Shown: one piece after another, positions 4,151-20,892 of the stretch
Position numbering within the stretch: position 1 is the stretch's first letter
How the letters are laid out: each line of letters opens with the position of its first letter
Virus record (IMG/VR): IMGVR_UViG_3300031578_000185
Span: 1-34,624 of that record
Length of the DNA stretch: 34,624 nucleotides
DNA from: a virus
Strand: one strand, 5' to 3'
Made by a program: the position numbers and the translations under genes
Notes under the pieces: model-generated
What the model saw: the letters and a program-made list of their open reading frames with translations, nothing else
The model's database searches: none
Told to the model about the DNA's origin: nothing

Positions 4151-4253
4151 TTACTGCCTCTATTGGTGGAGATGTAGGAGTGGTTAGCGAAACTCGCAAA
4201 GACCACAATACAAAAATGGGTTTCGTCCTGTCTCCACCAATTAGGGGCGGTAA
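4151..4253 (+). ncRNA. Candidate structured RNA: 22-bp long-range stem enclosing smaller hairpins
   Basis: 4151-4172 pairs with 4231-4253 over 22 base pairs, counting a few G-U pairs and one bulged base. The inner 11 bp (ATTGGTGGAGA with TCTCCACCAAT) are perfect. The 58-base interior has a bulged hairpin: GTGGT 4180-4184 with ACCAC 4202-4206, inside it GCGA 4187-4190 with TCGC 4194-4197, plus AGGA/TCCT at 4176-4179 and 4226-4229. It fills the gap between two small genes with no convincing ORF. There is no T-run, so it is not a simple terminator. It may be a small RNA, an mRNA processing site or a leader of the 4268 gene. Confidence 0.55.
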
Positions 4254-6141: not shown

Positions 6142-6284
6142 TTAAAAGGTTCTTTTGCAAGATTGGTTGGCATAGTATTTTTGTTGGATTTACACAAACT
6201 GGATTTGATGGGTGTAGCAGACACGCTAAATGTAAATGGTGTGGTTTTGAAGGTTTGATTGATAGTCAGGGTAATTTATTTTAG
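6132..6284 (+). CDS. Small zinc-ribbon-like protein
   Basis: 50 aa. FFCKIGWHSIFVGF...GCSRHAKCKWCGFEG has Cys/His ligands (C9, H14, C34, C37) spaced as in the short one-knuckle proteins common in phages (CxxGH...CxxCG). Starts with the shared ATGAAAGTAA sequence. Likely a zinc-binding adaptor; target unknown. Confidence 0.5.
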   Translation: MKVIKRFFCKIGWHSIFVGFTQTGFDGCSRHAKCKWCGFEGLIDSQGNLF

Positions 6285-6303
6285 CCCCAACATATTAATA
6301 AGA

Positions 6304-6323
6304 GAGTATTGAGATGAAAGTAA
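6304..6323 (+). repeat. 20-bp direct repeat across a gene start, copy 2
   Basis: Identical to 6122-6141; contains the start codon of the 6314 gene. Confidence 0.85.
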
Positions 6324-6517
6324 ATTATTTAGATAAAAATGGCACACCGATTTATTTTATCGCCTATTATCACAATGAAAAAATATATGCTGTTTGGAAA
6401 TTTGTTGAAAATGGCAATGATTTAATAGAAACTTTTGAAAGTATGAAGGAAGCTGAAAAGTTTATCAAAGGTAAATTAGGAGTTATTCGGCCCAGTTGTT
6501 ATTTTAAGAAATCTTAA
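6314..6517 (+). CDS. Hypothetical small protein
   Basis: 67 aa. Strands KVNYLDKNGTPIYFIAYYHNEKIYAVWKFV followed by helix SMKEAEKFIKGKLG: a compact beta-beta-beta-alpha pattern. One of four neighbouring genes that begin ATGAAAGTAA. Function unknown. Confidence 0.55.
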   Translation: MKVNYLDKNGTPIYFIAYYHNEKIYAVWKFVENGNDLIETFESMKEAEKFIKGKLGVIRPSCYFKKS

Positions 6518-6541
6518 CAACTAATCCTTAGGAGGAATGAG

Positions 6542-6766
6542 ATGAAAGTAAAAGAATATAAAAATACAAAACATTATTGTATCACCGAGGATAGATTATC
6601 TTGTTATGTGGATATTGAATCTGGTTTTAACAGAGTTAATTTTCATTTTCCTCACTTGGTTAAAGGCGTAATGTATGGTACAGAATACAGTAAACAAATG
6701 ATAATCAAATTCGCAAATATATTAAATAAAATAGTTGAATTGATACCAGAAGAAGAGAAAAAATGA
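6542..6766 (+). CDS. Hypothetical small protein
   Basis: 74 aa, AGGAGG at 6530-6535 before ATG 6542. CITEDRLSCYVDIESGFNRVNFHF then helix SKQMIIKFANILNKIVELIPEEEKK. Overlaps the next gene by 4 bases. Not recognised. Confidence 0.55.
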   Translation: MKVKEYKNTKHYCITEDRLSCYVDIESGFNRVNFHFPHLVKGVMYGTEYSKQMIIKFANILNKIVELIPEEEKK

Positions 6767-6960
6767 AAGTAAAAGTAATCGCTAAAAGTAAAAAATATGC
6801 TTCTTATGCCAAAATGATTGAAAAAGTAATGAATAGCGATAAAGAATTAACAATGACTACCGAAATTGCGAGTGATATTGCGTTGAAGTTAATTATTTGG
6901 GAAATGTTGATGGGTAAAAAAGCGTTGATTGATATTTTAAAAGAGTATTACAAATCTTAA
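6763..6960 (+). CDS. Hypothetical small helical protein
   Basis: 65 aa, ATGA overlap with the preceding gene. KVKVIAKSKKYASYAKMIEKVMNSDKELTMTTEIASDIALKLIIWEMLMGKKALIDILKEYYKS reads as one strand and three helices, with no long membrane span. Last gene before the structured RNA candidate. Confidence 0.55.
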   Translation: MKVKVIAKSKKYASYAKMIEKVMNSDKELTMTTEIASDIALKLIIWEMLMGKKALIDILKEYYKS

Positions 6961-6981
6961 CATTTAATCCTGCTTGGTTTA

Positions 6982-7286
6982 GAGCGGGACTTGCGGACGA
7001 GTGGGAAGTAACCGAAAGGTTTACTGTTTGCAAACCGTTCACAAGTTTCGCTTCAAGCCAGGCAGAATGACTGGTTTGAGTTGGTCGGGGAGTAACTATC
7101 CGAGTAGAACACTTGTCTATGTCGGATGATAATAGCTTCCCGCCCATCTCAAGCCAGGCAGAATATATCTTGACGGAGTGGCTGATAATAGCCAAAGTCA
7201 GTAGGCATTGCCTGCCTAAGCAGTGACGAAATCGGGGAGAATTATCTCAAGAGCCGTGACCAACTCTGCCTCCGTCAAAGATGTAT
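6982..7286 (+). ncRNA. Candidate structured non-coding RNA, about 305 nt
   Basis: The 347-base gap between genes has no credible ORF but many nested stems. (1) 6982-6993 with 7042-7053, 12 bp, enclosing a GAAA-tetraloop hairpin at about 7007-7026. (2) 7052-7061 with 7071-7080, 10 bp, competing with stem 1 for 7052-7053. (3) CGGGGAG 7086-7092 with 7136-7142, enclosing ATCCGA/TCGGAT 7098-7103 and 7122-7127. (4) 7163-7178 with 7270-7286, 16 bp with one bulge, enclosing (5) TGGCT/AGCCA 7179-7183 and 7190-7194, (6) TAGGCA/TGCCTA 7202-7207 and 7213-7218 with GTCA/TGAC outside it, and (7) GAGA/TCTC near 7237-7248. It resembles no RNA class I can name; group I and II intron cores, RNase P and tmRNA signatures were not seen. 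Confidence 0.65.
7053..7164 (+). repeat. 16-bp direct repeat within the structured RNA region
   Basis: TCAAGCCAGGCAGAAT occurs at 7053-7068 and 7149-7164. In the first copy TCAAGCCAG is the 5' arm of a hairpin; in the second the region leads into the 16-bp closing stem. A second repeat, TGATAATAGC, lies at 7127-7136 and 7183-7192. The repeats suggest two related subdomains or alternative pairings. Confidence 0.8.
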
Positions 7287-7307
7287 TTTAGCCAATAGAA
7301 AGGAAAT

Positions 7308-7514
7308 ATGTTTCAATGTAATATTTGCAAAAAAAAAGTCCCTGACAAAGGTATGAAGTTATTTATCAGTTATAGAATAATTACGGCAATGTGTATGGAC
7401 AAGAAAAAACATCGAAAAGATTGGGTAATTGATGGAACTGTCACTCGACAGATAAGACTCTGCGAAAAATGTCGCCAGTTGAATGATTTGGATTTAGATT
7501 TAGAGAATTTTTAG
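7308..7514 (+). CDS. Small zinc-ribbon protein
   Basis: 68 aa, AAAGGAAA upstream of ATG 7308. Two Cys pairs, CNIC (4, 7) and CEKC near the C-terminus (RLCEKCRQL), separated by basic strands, make a four-Cys zinc ribbon. It lies between the structured RNA candidate and groES. Function unknown. Confidence 0.6.
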   Translation: MFQCNICKKKVPDKGMKLFISYRIITAMCMDKKKHRKDWVIDGTVTRQIRLCEKCRQLNDLDLDLENF

Positions 7515-7545: not shown

Positions 7546-7809
7546 ATGATTATACCCATCGGTGATAGAATTTTGGTTAAACCTAAAGCGCCGGACGAAA
7601 AAACTAAGAGTGGTATTTTATTGACTCAGAAAGAAGACGAAAAGCAGGACCAAGGAATTGTTATTGCAGTCGGTGATGGCGAGGAGATGAAACGATTTAA
7701 AAAGGGCGAAAAAATTATTTATCAACGTTTTGGCCCGGCTAACATTGAAATTGAAAAAGAAAAATTTGTAATTGTCCATTTGGACGAGATTTTAGGAGTA
7801 ATAAAATGA
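7546..7809 (+). CDS. groES: Co-chaperonin GroES
   Basis: 87 aa, slightly shorter than cellular GroES (about 95). AGAAAGGAG lies upstream of ATG 7546. Family hallmarks: IPIGDRILVKP at the N-terminus, then the mobile loop region EKTKSGILLTQ (GIxL contacts GroEL), GIVIAVGDGEE, KGEKIIYQRFGPANIEIE and the C-terminal strand FVIVHLDEILGVIK. It caps the GroEL ring with ATP to enclose a folding substrate in the cytoplasm. Its last bases overlap an HNH gene (ATGA), which separates it from groEL, so the three are likely one transcript. Confidence 0.95.
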   Translation: MIIPIGDRILVKPKAPDEKTKSGILLTQKEDEKQDQGIVIAVGDGEEMKRFKKGEKIIYQRFGPANIEIEKEKFVIVHLDEILGVIK

Positions 7810-8369
7810 AACCAGCATGGAATAAAAGTAATAATTTTATCACTTGTAGGATATGTAAAAAGATATTTCATTCTGCACCATCTAACCATCGTAAGTATTG
7901 TTCTAAATTATGTACTAACATAGGGCAGACTGGACAGAAAAATCATTTAGGATATAAACATTCAGAAAAGACAAAATTAAAAATGAGTTTGATAAAAAAA
8001 GGTAAAGTTTGTAGTTTGGAACATAGAATAAAAACAAGCAACGCATTAAAGGGACATAAAGCACCCGGATGGAAGGGTGGGGTTTGCCATATTAACGCCT
8101 TGATAAGAAGCAGTATAGAATTTAGATTATGGAGAGAGGCCGTGTTTGCTCGCGATAATTGGATTTGTCAAAAGACAGGGATCAAAGGTGGGGCGTTGAG
8201 ACCTCATCATATTAAAAACTTCGCTCAACATCCAGAATTGAGATTTGCGATAGATAATGGGATAACTTTATCAGATAAATCACATAAAGAATTTCACAAA
8301 AAATATGGGATTAAAAATAATAACCAAGAACAATTAGAAGAATTTTTAGAAGGAGAAACTAATGAGTAA
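7806..8369 (+). CDS. HNH homing-type endonuclease with NUMOD3 repeats, between groES and groEL
   Basis: 187 aa. An N-terminal zinc finger (C14-x-x-C17, C32/C36), then NUMOD3 DNA-binding repeats (GYKHSEKTKLKMS, VCSLEHRIKTSNA, about 49-81), a GWKGG linker and a C-terminal HNH domain with H134-H135, N151, H160 and H164. The usual zinc Cys pairs are altered: CQKTG in place of CxxCG and LSDKSH in place of LCxxCH, unlike the relative at 20299. Such proteins nick or cut specific DNA to promote spread of their own gene. It overlaps groES by 4 and groEL by 8 bases, and its last codons (TTAGAAGGAG) contain the groEL ribosome site. Confidence 0.88.
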   Translation: MKPAWNKSNNFITCRICKKIFHSAPSNHRKYCSKLCTNIGQTGQKNHLGYKHSEKTKLKMSLIKKGKVCSLEHRIKTSNALKGHKAPGWKGGVCHINALIRSSIEFRLWREAVFARDNWICQKTGIKGGALRPHHIKNFAQHPELRFAIDNGITLSDKSHKEFHKKYGIKNNNQEQLEEFLEGETNE

Positions 8370-10008
8370 AAGTGTTATTTTTGGAGACGAAGCACGGACT
8401 AAATTATTAGAAGGTATCAATCTTGTAGCAAAGAGTGTTGGCGCAACCCTGGGCCCAAAAGGTAGAAATGCTATTCTTTCAATGAATACAGCACCACCGA
8501 TAATTACTAATGATGGTGTATCAATAGCATCTTTTTTCAATCTTGTAAAAGACCCATATATAAATACTGGTTGTCAAATGATTAAAGAGGTGGCTACAAA
8601 ACAAAATGAACCCGGCGATGGCACGACGACTGCTACAATATTAGCATCTGCATTGGCGAATGAGGGAATTAAATATATTATTTCTGGAAGAGATCCAATC
8701 GAAATTAAAGAAGGAATTGAAAGAGCATCAAAAGAAACGATTGAATCATTAAAAAAGATTGCTAAACAAGTTAAAACCACAGAGGAATTAATCCAAGTGG
8801 CTACAATCGCGGTTGAAGATGAGAAGACAGGAAAACTCATTGGCGAGATGATGCACGAAGTTGGTAAAGACGGGGCAATTACAGTTGAGACTTCTAAAGA
8901 TATTAAATTAGAAAAAGATGTCGCCAAAGGTATTAAGTTTGAGCAAGGATTTGCAACACCCTATTTTATGACTAATCCATTTCGGCAAGAAGCGGTTTAT
9001 GAGGATGTGCCAATTTTAGTGACAGATCATACCTTTTCAATCAATGAAGAATTATCACCTATTGCAGATGGACTGGCAGAAAAAGGTATTAAGGGATTAG
9101 TGATAATTTGCGATGATATGAAAAATGAGGCTCTTACAACATCGGTTACTAACACAATTAAAGGGATATTTCATTTTCTGGTGATACGACTTCCCGGGCT
9201 TGACGAAGAGAGGACAAAACAAGGCGAGGATATTGCGGTGGCTTGCGGAGCAAGATTCATTTCAAAAGACATTGATAAATTAGAGAATATAACATTAAAG
9301 GATTTAGGCGAGGCCGAGCGAGTGATTTCAAAAAATGATAATACGATTATTGTTAAGGGAGGTGGAAGTGATAAGAAAATTAAAGATAGAATTAAAATTC
9401 TAAAAGAAGGATATAAAGAGGCTATTTCTGATTTTGATAGAGATAAAATAAAAGAACGGATCGCCAGATTATCGGGTGGGATTGGTGTTATAAGAATTGG
9501 CGCGGCTACCGAACAGGAGTTAAATTACAAAAAACATAAAATAGAAGATGCTTTGGCGGCCACACGAGCCGCGGTCGAGGAAGGCATCGTGCCGGGGGGT
9601 GGGGTTGCTTTATTAAGATTGACAGAAAAAGAAGTGTTACTACCGACTAAAGATGAGGAATTTAATAAAGAGAATGTTTACCCGATGTATCACTTCATGA
9701 CAAATATAGGCGAGCAGATATTTTACGAAGCGATTAAATCTCCGATTAGAAAGATAGTTGAAAACGCTGGTAAAAATCCCGAAACAATAATTGAAAAGAT
9801 TTTAGAGAATGAAAATCCAAACTGGGGATGGGACGCTAAAAATAACGAGTTTAAGGATATGATAAAATATGGTATAATAGACCCGATTAAAATTGTCAGA
9901 AAAGCGATAGAGAATGCGGTGAGTATGGCTATTATGCTTTTAAGTTCGGAGAGTTTAATTGTTGATATACCTGAAGATAAAAAAGAAGAACCGAGGAGGC
10001 CGAGATGA
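8362..10008 (+). CDS. groEL: Chaperonin GroEL (Hsp60)
   Basis: 548 aa, full family length. ATG 8362 with AAGGAG inside the preceding gene. Equatorial ATP site: TLGPKGRNA (29-37), TNDGV with D51, GDGTTTAT (85-92, including the conserved Asp-Gly-Thr-Thr-Thr), and IEDALAATRAAVEEG with D396, equivalent to the E. coli catalytic D398. Apical domain about 190-370, with GFATPYFMTNP and the hydrophobic helices that bind substrate and GroES. The C-terminal region has the usual IIDPxKxxRxAxxNA pattern, but the tail ends EDKKEEPRRPR instead of the Gly-Gly-Met repeat. All key residues are present, so an active folding ring is expected. It is clearly phage-borne here, five genes upstream of terminase large subunit. 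Confidence 0.97.
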   Translation: MSKSVIFGDEARTKLLEGINLVAKSVGATLGPKGRNAILSMNTAPPIITNDGVSIASFFNLVKDPYINTGCQMIKEVATKQNEPGDGTTTATILASALANEGIKYIISGRDPIEIKEGIERASKETIESLKKIAKQVKTTEELIQVATIAVEDEKTGKLIGEMMHEVGKDGAITVETSKDIKLEKDVAKGIKFEQGFATPYFMTNPFRQEAVYEDVPILVTDHTFSINEELSPIADGLAEKGIKGLVIICDDMKNEALTTSVTNTIKGIFHFLVIRLPGLDEERTKQGEDIAVACGARFISKDIDKLENITLKDLGEAERVISKNDNTIIVKGGGSDKKIKDRIKILKEGYKEAISDFDRDKIKERIARLSGGIGVIRIGAATEQELNYKKHKIEDALAATRAAVEEGIVPGGGVALLRLTEKEVLLPTKDEEFNKENVYPMYHFMTNIGEQIFYEAIKSPIRKIVENAGKNPETIIEKILENENPNWGWDAKNNEFKDMIKYGIIDPIKIVRKAIENAVSMAIMLLSSESLIVDIPEDKKEEPRRPR

Positions 10009-10388: not shown

Positions 10389-10426
10389 GGGAAGAACCCA
10401 GAGATAATAATTCTTTGGGTTTTTTG
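10389..10426 (+). terminator. Hairpin plus T-run (control element A), upstream of terminase
   Basis: AACCCAGAG 10395-10403 pairs with CTTTGGGTT 10413-10421 (one G-U), loop of 9, followed by a T-run. It is preceded by GGGAAGAACC, as in four similar elements later in the window. A weak -10-like CATAAT lies at 10368-10373. It can terminate the chaperonin operon and/or attenuate entry into the terminase operon. Confidence 0.75.
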
Positions 10427-12414: not shown

Positions 12415-12425
12415 TGTGGTATAAT
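12415..12425 (+). promoter_or_regulatory. Extended -10 promoter
   Basis: TGTGGTATAAT: a perfect TATAAT with TG one base upstream, so a strong -35 is not needed (only TTTAGA at a suitable distance). The same TGTGRTATAAT sequence recurs at 15596 and 32671, and TATGGTATAAT at 26524. Confidence 0.65.
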
Positions 12426-12482
12426 GTTAGTGTGATGAGGCAAAGTTTGGTAAAAAAATAGGGGATGTTTAATTCCCAATTC

Positions 12483-12530
12483 GCCGGCCATCGACCAAAT
12501 ATGCCAAAATCACTTTAATATATGGCCGGC
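12483..12530. repeat. Inverted repeat with 9-bp GC-rich arms
   Basis: GCCGGCCAT at 12483-12491 and ATGGCCGGC at 12522-12530, separated by 30 bases. Each arm also contains the 8-base palindrome-like core GCCGGC, striking in A+T-rich DNA. It could be a protein-binding site, for example for packaging or an operator, or an RNA hairpin downstream of the 12415 promoter. Confidence 0.7.
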
Positions 12531-12560
12531 CAATAAATTAGTATAAATTATAGACCTACG

Positions 12561-12845: not shown

Positions 12846-14856
12846 GTATAAAGGCATAGACTCAACTGATGACGCATTAAAGGGCGATGACACCAAGTTT
12901 TTAGGTGTTCTCAACTCTTGGTTTGAAGCGGCTAAAAAGAATCGCCAACAGAAGGATTGGGAGTGGTATCTCTATGACAATTATTATCGAGGTAATCATT
13001 ATATTCAATTTAACAAAAAAACTTTTCAGATAGTTACTCCTCCTCGGCCAAAAGGTCAGATTAGATTAACTGTCAACTATATTTTCCCGATTGTTAGAGC
13101 AATCAGAAACTTTGCGACTTCCTACCGGCCCAAATGGGAAGTGGGAGCGAACTCGACAACCGAAGATGAGGTCAATAATAATCGTAAATCTGCCGAGACT
13201 TTGGATAACTATTTCGATCATCTCGAAATGCCTAAAAAGATTAAACAGGCGGCCAATCATGTTATTCAAAAAGGTTTAGGGTTTTTCCAGTATGCTTGGG
13301 ATGACGAAGGAACTGGGTTTGACAATCAAAAAGGTGAAGTGGATGTCTGGGTCAGAGACCCCTTCGATGTTTATATGGACCCAGCAGGAATGGAGACAGG
13401 AGATATTCAGAACTGTCGTTTTGTTGATATTGCCATCTCTAAACCAATTCAAGATATTATTAACAATCCAAACTACAAGTTCGACAAAGAGGAAGACAAA
13501 GACAATATCTCCGGCGACACAGTTCGCGCGGCTTCGGAGTTTAAACAGATTTTGATTAGAAATCAATATGCTGATAACTTCTCCAGCAACAAAGAACTCA
13601 AAACTAAAATCTTACACGAAACTTTATACAAAAAGAAAGTTGGAGATAAAACCGAGGTTTGGGTCGCCTCTTGGTTTGAGGGACACCTATTGAGAAATGA
13701 AAAAACCGAGTTTGAGAAATATAATCTTATCCCGATTGTGTCTGATGATAACCCGAATGAGATTGGTGGTGAGGGATATATTAAGAACTTAGTGCCAATT
13801 AACAAGGCTCTTAACAGGTTGGAATCACAAATATTAGAGTATAACAACCTAGTCAATCGTGGCAGACTTATTGCTGATAAGAATTCAGGAGTGTCCAAGA
13901 TTACTAATGAAACAGGCGAGATTATTGAGAAGAACCCTGGCGCTGATGTTAAAGAAATGACTCATCCAGGACTTTCTCCCGATATTCACGCACAAGTATC
14001 TCGTTTGGTAGATTACATTAAATATATTTCAGGCGTGGTTGACGCTTTTGTAGGTAAGGCCCCGGCAGGTGTTACAGCAGGGGTGGCTCTTGAATCTCTA
14101 AAAGCCCAAACAGCCAATAATCTTCAGGATATAAAAGACAATTTAGAAACATCTTTGGCTCAACTTGGAGAGGGTATTTTGGAACTTATAGCAAACAAAG
14201 TGATAGCCCCGAGGCAAATCAAAACTGCTGGTCAAGATGGCAAACCTTCTCACTTTAAGATAAAAGGCCAGGTCGGAGTTAAACCCAAAGAGCAACTTCC
14301 TAAAGATACCTATGTTATCGGTAATCAAAATCAAGTTAAAGTGATAATCGGATCGGGATTGGCCTACACAAGAGAAGGTAGAATTGCAAGACTTGATAAA
14401 ATGTTAGAGCAAAAAGTAATCGCTCCGGCAACCTATCTTAAAGCAATCGAGTTTGGCGATATAGAGGAAGCGATTAAAGAATCTACTCAATCGCAATTCA
14501 ATGATGCAATGATGCAAAATATTACGAAAAATGGTATGCCGGGTCAGATGCCACCAGGGGGTATGCCCGCACAAGGTCAGATGCCGGCAGAACAACCTCC
14601 AACGGGTCAGCCAGCACCTCAAGAGCAAGGACCTGATTCTTGGACCAAGTTAGCCGAGGATGAGAATAAAGCAATGCTCACTGGTAAAATTATTCCACCG
14701 ACTGAGGGAGCTCCAAAAGAACATACAGCAATTCATATTGCATTTAGCCAGAGCGATGAGGCACAAGAAAATGAACACTTATTAAAGGCAATATATGAGC
14801 ATATTCGTGGGGAAGAAAGTCAACAGGGTATGCCAGAGACAGGAAAGAGTGAATAA
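12838..14856 (+). CDS. Portal protein
   Basis: 672 aa from GTG 12838, with AAAGGA about 8 bases upstream; no ATG offers a better start. Position after terminase, size and features fit a portal: N-terminal DWEWYLYDNYYRGNHY and LTVNYIFPIVRAIRNF, typical of P22/SPP1-like portals; central VWVRDPFDVYMDPAG; long helical region LVPINKALNRLESQILEYNNLVNRG; VVDAFVGKAPAGVTAGVALESLKAQ. A Met/Gly/Pro/Gln-rich segment (about 560-600) precedes the C-terminus. It forms the ring at the head vertex through which DNA passes. Followed with 1-base overlap by an HNH gene. Confidence 0.88.
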   Translation: MSEYKGIDSTDDALKGDDTKFLGVLNSWFEAAKKNRQQKDWEWYLYDNYYRGNHYIQFNKKTFQIVTPPRPKGQIRLTVNYIFPIVRAIRNFATSYRPKWEVGANSTTEDEVNNNRKSAETLDNYFDHLEMPKKIKQAANHVIQKGLGFFQYAWDDEGTGFDNQKGEVDVWVRDPFDVYMDPAGMETGDIQNCRFVDIAISKPIQDIINNPNYKFDKEEDKDNISGDTVRAASEFKQILIRNQYADNFSSNKELKTKILHETLYKKKVGDKTEVWVASWFEGHLLRNEKTEFEKYNLIPIVSDDNPNEIGGEGYIKNLVPINKALNRLESQILEYNNLVNRGRLIADKNSGVSKITNETGEIIEKNPGADVKEMTHPGLSPDIHAQVSRLVDYIKYISGVVDAFVGKAPAGVTAGVALESLKAQTANNLQDIKDNLETSLAQLGEGILELIANKVIAPRQIKTAGQDGKPSHFKIKGQVGVKPKEQLPKDTYVIGNQNQVKVIIGSGLAYTREGRIARLDKMLEQKVIAPATYLKAIEFGDIEEAIKESTQSQFNDAMMQNITKNGMPGQMPPGGMPAQGQMPAEQPPTGQPAPQEQGPDSWTKLAEDENKAMLTGKIIPPTEGAPKEHTAIHIAFSQSDEAQENEHLLKAIYEHIRGEESQQGMPETGKSE

Positions 14857-15416
14857 TGAAAAAAGTGTTGTCCGAGGAACATATAAATAAAATAAGGAAA
14901 GCGATGGAGGGAAATAAACACTTTTTAGGCAAAAAACATTCCGAAGAAAGCAGGGCAAAAATTAGATTATCATTATTGGGAATCAAACATCCTGAAGAAA
15001 GAATAATAAAAAATAGAGAGTCTCATAAAGGTATTAGACATTCAGAGGAAACAAAGGCAAAGATGAGAAAAAGTAGTGTTCATTATTGGCAAGGGATACC
15101 CTCAGAACTACAACCAAATTGGAAAGGTGGATTATCCTTTGAACCATATAGTAAAGATTTTAGTAAGCAACTTAAACAAAAAGTTAGAGCAAGAGACAAT
15201 TATACTTGTCAAGAGTGTAAATATTCAGAAAAACAACTTGGGTATAATTTAACAGTTCATCATATAGATTATGATAAGAAAAATAATATATTAAGCAATC
15301 TTATATCCTTATGTCGGAGTTGTAATTCTAAAGTTAATTGGAATAGAGATAATTGGAAGAATTATTTTCAACAAGGATTAAATTTAGAAGGAGTTGAAAA
15401 TGCCGAAGGCGTTTGA
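14856..15416 (+). CDS. HNH homing-type endonuclease with NUMOD3 repeats
   Basis: 186 aa, ATG sharing one base with the portal stop. NUMOD3 repeats (FLGKKHSEESRAKIRLS, GIKHPEERIIKNRES, GIRHSEETKAKMRKS, about 23-73), NWKGGLSFEPY linker and HNH domain with zinc pairs C118/C121 and C153/C156, H135-H136 and N148. Closely related in its C-terminal half to the 17722 protein (HHIDYDK, NLISLCRSC). Its 3' end contains TTTAGAAGGAG, the ribosome site of the 15400 gene, which it overlaps by 17 bases. Confidence 0.88.
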   Translation: MKKVLSEEHINKIRKAMEGNKHFLGKKHSEESRAKIRLSLLGIKHPEERIIKNRESHKGIRHSEETKAKMRKSSVHYWQGIPSELQPNWKGGLSFEPYSKDFSKQLKQKVRARDNYTCQECKYSEKQLGYNLTVHHIDYDKKNNILSNLISLCRSCNSKVNWNRDNWKNYFQQGLNLEGVENAEGV

Positions 15417-15630: not shown

Positions 15631-15667
15631 GGAAGAACCATAGGCAAATAACCTGTGGTTTTTTTGT
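15631..15667 (+). terminator. Hairpin plus T-run (control element C)
   Basis: GGAAGAACC leader; AACCATAGG 15636-15644 pairs with CCTGTGGTT 15652-15660 (one G-U), loop CAAATAA, then a T-run. It lies about 25 bases downstream of the probable start point of the 15596 promoter and 70 bases before the scaffold gene. Confidence 0.8.
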
Positions 15668-15738
15668 AATTTAAATAATTGACCAACCCTTTGAGATAGT
15701 CGCAAGACGAACCTTAGAGGAAGTCAGAAAGGAACAAC

Positions 15739-17721: not shown

Positions 17722-18261
17722 ATGACAGAAAAACATAAGCGAAAATTGAGCGAATCCCATAAGGGTAGCAAAAACCCAATGTTTGGCAAAAAACTTTCAG
17801 AAGAACATAAGAGAAAGATTAGTCAGAATAATGGTAAGTATTGGTTGGGAAAGAAAAGAGATAAACCAACAATAGAAAAATTGAGTAAAGCCAGATTGGG
17901 TAAGGCTCGACCAGGTAATCCAGAAAATTGGAAACATTCTGCCGAAACTAAAAAGAAAATTGGTGATATGGAACGAGGAGACAAATGTCATTTTTGGCGA
18001 GGCGGGATTTCATATGACCCCTATCCTGAAGACTGGACGGATGTGTTGAGGGAGTCGATCAGAATCAGGGATGGGTATATATGTCAATTATGTGGAATAC
18101 ATCAGGACGAATTGCAGGACAGATTTAAAAAATTGGATTGTCATCACATAGATTATGACAAAACCAACTGCAATCCTGATAACCTAATAAGTTTATGTAG
18201 AAGTTGTCATCAAAAGACAAATTTTGATAGAGAATACTGGATAAAAAGATTAGTCCAATAA
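17722..18261 (+). CDS. HNH homing-type endonuclease with NUMOD3 repeats
   Basis: 179 aa, 20 bases after the capsid gene. NUMOD3 repeats MTEKHKRKLSESHKG, MFGKKLSEEHKRKIS, KHSAETKKKIG (about 1-80), linker FWRGGISYDPYPEDW, and HNH with C121/C124, H141-H142, N154 and C159/C162. Clear paralogue of the 14856 protein. Ribosome site weak (GAGAACC), so low expression is likely. Followed by a 163-base gap with folded RNA. Confidence 0.88.
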   Translation: MTEKHKRKLSESHKGSKNPMFGKKLSEEHKRKISQNNGKYWLGKKRDKPTIEKLSKARLGKARPGNPENWKHSAETKKKIGDMERGDKCHFWRGGISYDPYPEDWTDVLRESIRIRDGYICQLCGIHQDELQDRFKKLDCHHIDYDKTNCNPDNLISLCRSCHQKTNFDREYWIKRLVQ

Positions 18262-18287
18262 TTCCTCCATAAAGGGTTAATGGGGAT

Positions 18288-18401
18288 GTTTGGCGGGATC
18301 ATCCATAAACAAACCGCCCAAATAAAAATTAAAGTATCTTGGGGTGTCTAAACGGAGATAGGTTTTCCCCTCCTTACCTATCTCTCTCCAGACACCTCAA
18401 G
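18288..18401 (+). promoter_or_regulatory. Structured leader upstream of the beta-helix gene
   Basis: Two elements between genes. A bulged hairpin, TTTGGCGG with CCGCCCAAA (about 18289-18320). Then a strong nested structure: CTTGGGGTGTCT 18338-18349 with AGACACCTCAAG 18390-18401 (12 bp, one G-U), enclosing GAGATAGG 18355-18362 with CCTATCTC 18377-18384 (8 bp perfect). No T-run follows. The gene's Shine-Dalgarno (AGGAG 18413-18417) is outside the stem. It may separate capsid and downstream expression, act as an RNase processing site, or bind a regulator. Confidence 0.6.
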
Positions 18402-18424
18402 GGTAAACTATTTAGGAGACAAAA

Positions 18425-19958: not shown

Positions 19959-20291
19959 ATGGTAAATTCTATATTCTTAAATCAAATGTTTCGGCTTGAC
20001 AAAACTTTATTCTTGAAGTTAGACAAGTTGAAACAGCGATTTATAGTTTATAGGAAGGATAGACAGAACCTCCCTCGTGAAATCCTTGTTATCGAGGACA
20101 ATCGGGGGGAGTTCTGCTATCCATCGTATGAGCATATTGTTCAATTATACAAGGCCGACCTTTGGCAGAATCCTAATCTAATAAAAGAAATGGACGAATG
20201 GAACGAAAACCTTGATAAAGAATCGGATGAGAAAATACACAGAATTTCAGACGAAGTAAGTAAAATTGCCACGAGATCGGCCTGGTACTGA
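19959..20291 (+). CDS. Hypothetical protein
   Basis: 110 aa, ATG immediately after the preceding TAA, so probably translated by reinitiation. Mixed alpha/beta, strongly charged (LDKLKQRFIVYRKDRQNLPREILVIEDNRGEFCYPSYEHIVQLYKADLW). No family recognised. Its 3' neighbour is a homing-type endonuclease gene. Confidence 0.55.
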   Translation: MVNSIFLNQMFRLDKTLFLKLDKLKQRFIVYRKDRQNLPREILVIEDNRGEFCYPSYEHIVQLYKADLWQNPNLIKEMDEWNENLDKESDEKIHRISDEVSKIATRSAWY

Positions 20292-20298
20292 GGTTAAA

Positions 20299-20892
20299 AT
20301 GCCAAGAGGAACATACCCAAATGGTAATAAAGGATTATTTACAAGCGAAAGACTTAAAGGTAAAATGCCTAAAAATATTGGTTATCTTCATTCTTTACCC
20401 GCAGATATAGAGAAAAAAAGATTAGAAAATATATCAAAAGCATTGACTGGTAAAAAACTATCTAAAGAACATAAAGAAAATATAGTTAAAAAAAATAAAG
20501 GTAATAAATACGCTTTAGGTCATCACTGGAAACACACAGAAAAAACCAAAAAGAAAATGAGTATTAGTCAAAAAAATAGACAACCTTTTTCAGAAGAGAC
20601 CAAAAAAAAGATGAGTATATCTCACGGCGGGAACGGAACTTCAGATAGAACATTAAAAAGATATTATCATACGATAGGTACAGAATATAAAGAATGGCGA
20701 AGTAGTGTTTTTCAACGAGATAACTGGATTTGCCAAACTTGCGGAATAAAAAGCAGCGAAGGAAATAAAGTTTATTTAGAAGCCCATCATATTAAAGGAT
20801 GGACAAAATATCCAGAATTAAGATATTTGCTGGATAATGGCGTAACTCTCTGTCGGGAGTGCCATAAATTAACATTAAAAAATAGAATGTAG
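20299..20892 (+). CDS. HNH homing-type endonuclease with NUMOD3 repeats
   Basis: 197 aa from ATG 20299 (GAGG about 5 bases upstream); a TTG at 20266 would overlap the preceding gene. NUMOD3 repeats TGKKLSKEHKENIVKKN, GHHWKHTEKTKKKMSIS and PFSEETKKKMSIS (about 50-108), then HNH with C145/C148, H163-H164, N180 and C185/C188. Closest relative in the window is the 7806 protein (WRSSVFQRDNWICQ / PELRYLLDNGVTL), but this one keeps all zinc Cys residues. The following gene begins only 7 bases later with a non-ATG codon. Confidence 0.88.
   Translation: MPRGTYPNGNKGLFTSERLKGKMPKNIGYLHSLPADIEKKRLENISKALTGKKLSKEHKENIVKKNKGNKYALGHHWKHTEKTKKKMSISQKNRQPFSEETKKKMSISHGGNGTSDRTLKRYYHTIGTEYKEWRSSVFQRDNWICQTCGIKSSEGNKVYLEAHHIKGWTKYPELRYLLDNGVTLCRECHKLTLKNRM

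Follow-up and report, generated by a model that had tools for sequence, protein, structure and literature searches.

A strand-specific, three-domain folded RNA in an intergenic gap of an uncultured phage, tentatively read as cis-acting message punctuation

What kind of molecule is the elaborately folded RNA that fills a gap between two small genes of an uncultured bacterial virus: an RNA gene in its own right, or a section of the message in which it lies? The question is posed by the virus record IMGVR_UViG_3300031578_000185, which was analyzed whole (34,624 bases; hereafter the window, whose numbering is used for all feature positions). The window derives from a tailed phage; its genes encode a P22-like portal, a PHROG 14242 capsid protein, GroES, GroEL, and several HNH homing endonucleases. 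The RNA is preceded by a series of very small genes and followed by an ORF 7308–GroES–HNH–GroEL group, beyond which lie the packaging and structural genes. It provides a clear example of a strongly folded, strand-specific RNA without a catalogued family in an uncultured phage. Its immediate neighbors are:

6763..6960, + strand: upstream small gene, 65 aa, no family found
7308..7514, + strand: downstream small gene, 68 aa with two CxxC pairs, no family found
7546..7809, + strand: co-chaperonin GroES
8362..10008, + strand: chaperonin GroEL (the query that led to the sister phage)

The folding of this RNA of about 324 bases is genuine and strand-specific. The + strand of the gap (6961–7307, 347 bases) has an MFE of −145.1 kcal/mol, compared with −94.7 ± 5.3 for 600 dinucleotide shuffles, none of which is as low (lowest −112.5; z −9.6); a slightly different stretch of the gap gave z −8.2 with 100 shuffles, and the gap is the strongest + strand folding region in whole-window scans. 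The minus strand reaches only −117.6, and the strand difference of −27.5 lies outside all 600 shuffles (mean −8.9, extreme −23.2). This asymmetry arises because G–U pairs are numerous (17 of 117 in the RNA fold), and, exceeding that of the shuffles, it points to the + strand RNA, and not a DNA palindrome, as the selected molecule. A low folding energy is by itself no proof of a noncoding RNA gene, since a segment within a conserved protein gene of the same window (19960–20300) reaches z −7.0. As the earlier note on this DNA had stated, no open frame crosses the gap on the + strand, every + frame containing stops; on the minus strand, a 100-aa TTG frame (6893–7195) was rejected as a protein gene, being unsupported and overlapping the upstream gene. 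A scan for + strand promoters and terminators inside the gap found none, as expected for part of a longer message.

How is the RNA built? Pair probabilities (P) from the fold of the gap resolve a unit of three domains, 6970–7293:

6970..7065, + strand: D1, imperfect hairpin (main stems P 0.97–0.99; alone z −6.7), with stems 6970–6980:7055–7065 (11-bp closing), 6982–6993:7042–7053 (12 bp, P 0.99), and 6995–6999:7036–7040 (5 bp)
7012–7019, + strand: GAAA-capped apical hairpin of D1
7053..7068, + strand: copy 1 of a 16-nt direct repeat, TCAAGCCAGGCAGAAT, forming the 3′ strand of the D1 closing stem and a linker
7071..7157, + strand: D2, imperfect hairpin of stacked stems (alone z −5.8)
7072–7084:7144–7156, + strand: outer closing stem of D2
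7086–7093 / 7097–7103 / 7104–7108 with 7116–7142, + strand: three-level stem of D2 (P 0.89–0.99)
7149..7164, + strand: copy 2 of the repeat, identical, forming the 3′ strand of the D2 closing stem and the linker into D3
7157..7293, + strand: D3, closing helix round a multibranch loop (alone z −5.0)
7157–7178:7270–7293, + strand: 22-bp closing helix of D3 (P 0.88–1.0)
7179–7194 and 7201–7215, + strand: inner hairpins of D3
7220–7269, + strand: irregular, weaker arm of D3, weakly determined (P 0.43–0.80)

The earlier note, which had described a structured unit of about 305 nt at 6982–7286, was right about its stems: the 12-bp stem of D1, the three-level stem, and the pairing of 7163–7178 with 7270–7286 are all predicted at high P, the last of them as part of the longer D3 helix. 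The GAAA tetraloop hairpin and the 16-base repeat in two subdomains are likewise real. Its limits were too narrow, since the outer closing stems of D1 and D2 had been missed. Duplex lengths come to 11+12+5 bp for D1 and 22 bp for the D3 closing helix; in D2 they are 10+3+8 bp, with an apical stem of 12 bp in addition. The D1 and D2 closing stems are alike: the repeat furnishes both 3′ strands, the 5′ strands (UUGGUUUAGAG and CUGGUUUGAG) also match, and one G–U wobble is retained in both. From this likeness, D1 and D2 appear to be copies that arose by duplication of a single hairpin module. A 9-nt complement between 7078–7086 and 7258–7266 was considered as a switch and rejected; by estimate, chance alone would yield about 0.2 such matches in a sequence of this length, and the pairing would break D2.

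Both edges of the unit resemble gene junctions. The upstream edge, AAATCTTAACATTTAATCCT, copies the terminal bases of an earlier small gene together with the spacer after it (6509–6528): the last bases of gene 6763..6960 and the following TTAATCCT are the same as the end of gene 6314–6517, and the RNA therefore begins where the ribosome site of a next gene would be. The downstream edge, TATTTTAGCC, is similar to the end of another gene (6274–6288). Thus, the RNA occupies a gene-sized slot. Such a cassette invites the view that it is a discrete trans-acting or structural phage RNA, separately transcribed or excised, in which D1–D3 form one folded particle; if true, this would be a new class, and one small enough to solve. 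The size, the three linked domains, the extreme z, the GAAA tetraloop, and the gene-junction-like flanks all speak for this view, as does the outcome of the family searches. Rfam 15 covariance models gave no match above the gathering threshold in the window, in keeping with the earlier note, which had recognized no known class, and at E ≤ 10 returned only chance-level matches to miRNA, SL1, and IRES models, far below threshold. ARAGORN found no tRNA genes in the 34.6 kb, and blastn of the RNA region against phage and plasmid DNA gave no match.

Comparison with known large RNAs yields partial likenesses. Like GOLLD and ROOL, this is an ornate phage-encoded RNA; many GOLLD members are longer than 800 nt, and tRNA islands are often found near RNAs of both classes (PMC12286853). 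Unlike them, the RNA here matches no Rfam model and has no tRNA gene in the 34.6 kb, a neighbor that is frequent there though not strictly defining. Like group I introns and HEARO RNAs, it is structured, and it comes from a phage in which HNH homing endonucleases abound. A group I intron was rejected, no catalytic core being recognized by the Rfam intron models (E ≤ 10), and so was a HEARO/IscB guide RNA, for which there is no Rfam match and no adjacent IscB-like gene, the neighbors being the 68-aa protein and GroES. At least four HNH-type endonuclease genes are scattered among the core genes of the window (7806–8369, 14856–15416, 17722–18261, and 20266–20892); the one closest to the RNA, NUMOD3-type and 187 aa long, lies 500 nt downstream, past GroES.

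Does the RNA recur in other phages? GroEL, portal, and capsid searches yielded three relatives (n = 3), of which the portal-based search (a two-row alignment with poor patterns) found only the first:

G001, IMGVR_UViG_3300032046_000073: 41 kb, capsid 89%
G003, IMGVR_UViG_3300035701_000091: 41 kb, capsid 83%, largely collinear
G002, IMGVR_UViG_3300031227_004498: 11.7-kb fragment, capsid 85%

The whole RNA is absent from the corresponding place in all three. The sister phage G001 carries a D2-type hairpin on the minus strand (L134:1514–1567), in a gap bordered by a 52-aa gene and a gene identified by eye as lysozyme-like; its flanking genes differ from those in the window, and neither D1 nor D3 accompanies it. 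One D2 arm is the same at 17 of 18 bases, and the window-derived D2 arms match G001 at 32 of 35 positions, where 100 G001 shuffles never exceed 25; in G003 and the fragment G002, the best values (22/35 and 21/35) amount to no match. The D2 core common to the two phages, CUGGUUUGA..UGGUCGG / CCGCCCAUCnCAAGCCAG, keeps a U–C mismatch and a G–U wobble, and the inner D2 stem shows two compensatory pairs between them, along with a single one-sided change. Covariation between two sequences is weak and no more than suggestive here: its score was equalled by 130 of 500 shuffles. Separately, both contig ends of G001 (L134 1–250 and L122 1–160) lead into a TTCGGTCnGGG repeat array common to the two, which would fit a circular or permuted genome opened inside a repeat-rich gene.

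Wider searches gave no homologue of the complete D1–D3 unit across the viral contigs, genome contigs, and related loci searched. A model of the D2 hairpin (R1), built from the window and G001 and hence including both by construction, found only these two among 55 related loci (0.96 Mb), beyond one chance-level match at E 3.6. Several further candidates were rejected: the 14-base repeat core occurs in at least 119 stretches of the viral contigs, in line with the chance expectation for that length; a paired-repeat scan gave nine stretches, none with further likeness; the D2 right arm gave G001 and two chance matches in the viral contigs, and 67 matches in the genome contigs, where the 19 strongest or otherwise notable had no D2-like left arm; and a left-arm-plus-core scan gave G001 and three unrelated matches.

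These results bear directly on the suggestion of a new phage RNA class, which is as yet unsupported: in the collections searched, only D2 was found to have a relative, in a single sister phage, where the hairpin is nonorthologous in position and lacks D1 and D3. With no whole-unit homologue in the collections searched, with D2 standing alone in the relative, and with no promoter or terminator of its own, a discrete RNA is possible but unlikely. Its more specific form, in which the locus is the first member of a new class, a gene-sized three-domain cassette acting in trans or as a scaffold and assembled from a duplicated hairpin module common to related phages, strikes us as rather improbable. 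Because only one domain recurs in a relative, an element of local mRNA control or processing is more likely than a proven new RNA class. The patchy distribution could also reflect a mobile or recombinational hairpin insertion of little function, such as a REP element or a hairpin MITE-like element, given that the unit is present in one phage and missing from that place in its relatives, that D1 resembles D2 and a family member lies elsewhere in the sister, and that the flanks look like gene junctions. We regard an insertion as very improbable, however, for strand-specific wobble pairs and the compensatory changes of inner D2 point to selection on RNA, and the genome contigs scan showed no repeated copies in bacterial genomes.

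We tentatively favor, at somewhat less than even confidence, a composite cis-acting intergenic RNA that punctuates or processes an early or middle polycistronic transcript. The three hairpin domains would fill a gene-sized intergenic slot of the phage message, and their long imperfect duplexes would serve as punctuation, probably cut or bound by a host RNase III-type double-strand ribonuclease, such that the upstream small-gene messages would be separated from, and protected against, the ORF 7308–GroES–GroEL message, while the ribosome site of 7308, immediately 3′ of D3, would remain accessible. The closing hairpin common to D1 and D2 would be a module, duplicated here and placed at another intergenic site in the sister phage. 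Transcription, cleavage, and the effect on the messages are inferred. Punctuation is preferred because no + strand promoter or terminator was found in the gap, the fold fills it, and the AAGGA ribosome site (about 7300–7304) is unpaired in the predicted structure. Messages of T7, T3, and lambda contain hairpins processed by RNase III, with a duplex minimum of about 22 nt (PMC5371410), and processing of this type is probable here since D1, D2, and the D3 closing helix each provide an intergenic duplex of at least about that length, with small mismatches. The resemblance to the T7, T3, and lambda sites thus extends to long imperfect intergenic hairpins in a polycistronic mRNA with duplexes above the minimum, whereas three domains in one gap, one of them multibranched, set the present case apart. 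Counting against punctuation, the multibranched D3 is more elaborate than processing would require, and a length of 324 nt seems great for an element that does nothing but punctuate. To our knowledge, RNase III-type sites have no testable sequence signature. A processing element, if true, would show this lineage dividing its messages by RNA hairpins.

Could the RNA instead regulate the genes that follow it? Its 3′ end lies about 7 nt ahead of the 7308 ribosome site and upstream of the chaperonin genes, a position suited to a cis regulatory leader of ORF 7308–GroES–GroEL: an attenuator, a protein-binding leader, or a put-like RNA polymerase modifier giving read-through. The HK022 put RNAs, which bind RNA polymerase, are about 70 nt long and near the early promoters of a lambdoid phage, and the two-hairpin putL and putR are mutually similar (PMC9378689); the tandem related hairpins here, with a related one in the sister's early region, recall them. 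The likeness, a loose one of architecture alone, comprises recurring similar hairpins, early phage regions, tandem stem-loops, and possible cis action, but no promoter was found nearby and the RNA measures about 324 nt. Moreover, the ribosome site is not sequestered, no terminator alternative was seen, and the sister's hairpin precedes an unrelated gene. A regulatory leader is on these grounds unlikely.

The cis-acting punctuation that we prefer can also be viewed against the intergenic hairpins of the lineage at large, for which 90-base windows were scored on the gene strand, with mechanical ORFs as gene limits and with some of the hairpins being terminators. Six of the ten strongest hairpins in the window fall wholly or mostly within the noncoding 9% (1276–1365, 4156–4245, 6976–7065, 7066–7155, 15631–15720, and 18316–18405), and another, 12451–12540, ranks just below the top set; the corresponding fractions are 4/5 in G003 and 4/6 in G001, and noncoding DNA makes up 6–11% of these genomes. 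With so many of the strongest hairpins intergenic, the RNA studied here is the largest of a set, and since such hairpins are habitual in the lineage, an independent RNA gene is no likelier than a cis-acting element. One such hairpin follows the capsid gene, in a spacer that is conserved apart from it: the hairpin is long in the window and in G003, retained there although the base pairs differ, and short in G001 and G002. The conserved element at 18262–18424 (+), which lies beyond the capsid gene in all four phages, consists of a GTTTGGCGG..CCGCC hairpin, AAGTATC, a variable-length hairpin, and GGGTAAACTAT; in the window only, among the four, HNH gene 17722–18261 splits it from the capsid gene. 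Another hairpin, 20057–20122 (+; GGATAG.CAGAAC / GTTCTG.CTATCC), lies inside a conserved 110-aa gene (19959–20291) and is kept in three phages; the gene as a whole reaches z −7.0.

Comparison of the four genomes further reveals that the lineage carries several conserved, uncatalogued RNA leaders. A late-gene leader is repeated in the window at 10391, 12561, 15632, 26546, and 32709 (+). It has a 5-nt AAGAA loop closed by at least three complementary bases that change between copies (GGG/CCC, CGG/CCG, TGG/CCA, and GAG/CTC, with CAG/CTG in relatives), and its 3′ arm doubles as the 5′ arm of an intrinsic terminator that ends in a T run; a ribosome site comes next, and then a gene. The cassette is also present in G001, G003, and G002 and never on the opposite strand; about 77 more distant capsid relatives hold no convincing copy. 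The loop size recalls boxB of lambdoid phages, and the arrangement suggests attenuation or antitermination of late operons; these leaders may be a better lead than the gap RNA. Promoter-like TGnTATAAT boxes (e.g., TTGTGGTATAATATAG) stand at 12417, 15598, 26526, and 32673 (+), preceding four of the leaders by 20 to 145 bases, and similar boxes precede several copies in relatives. A further leader, 15679–15738 (+), just before gene 15739 and adjoining its ribosome site, is alike in four phages, with the order TTGACgAAaCTTT–stem–AGTCGCAAGACgAAC–stem–GGAAGTCA and an apical loop that varies among GCAA, GGAA, and UUAG.
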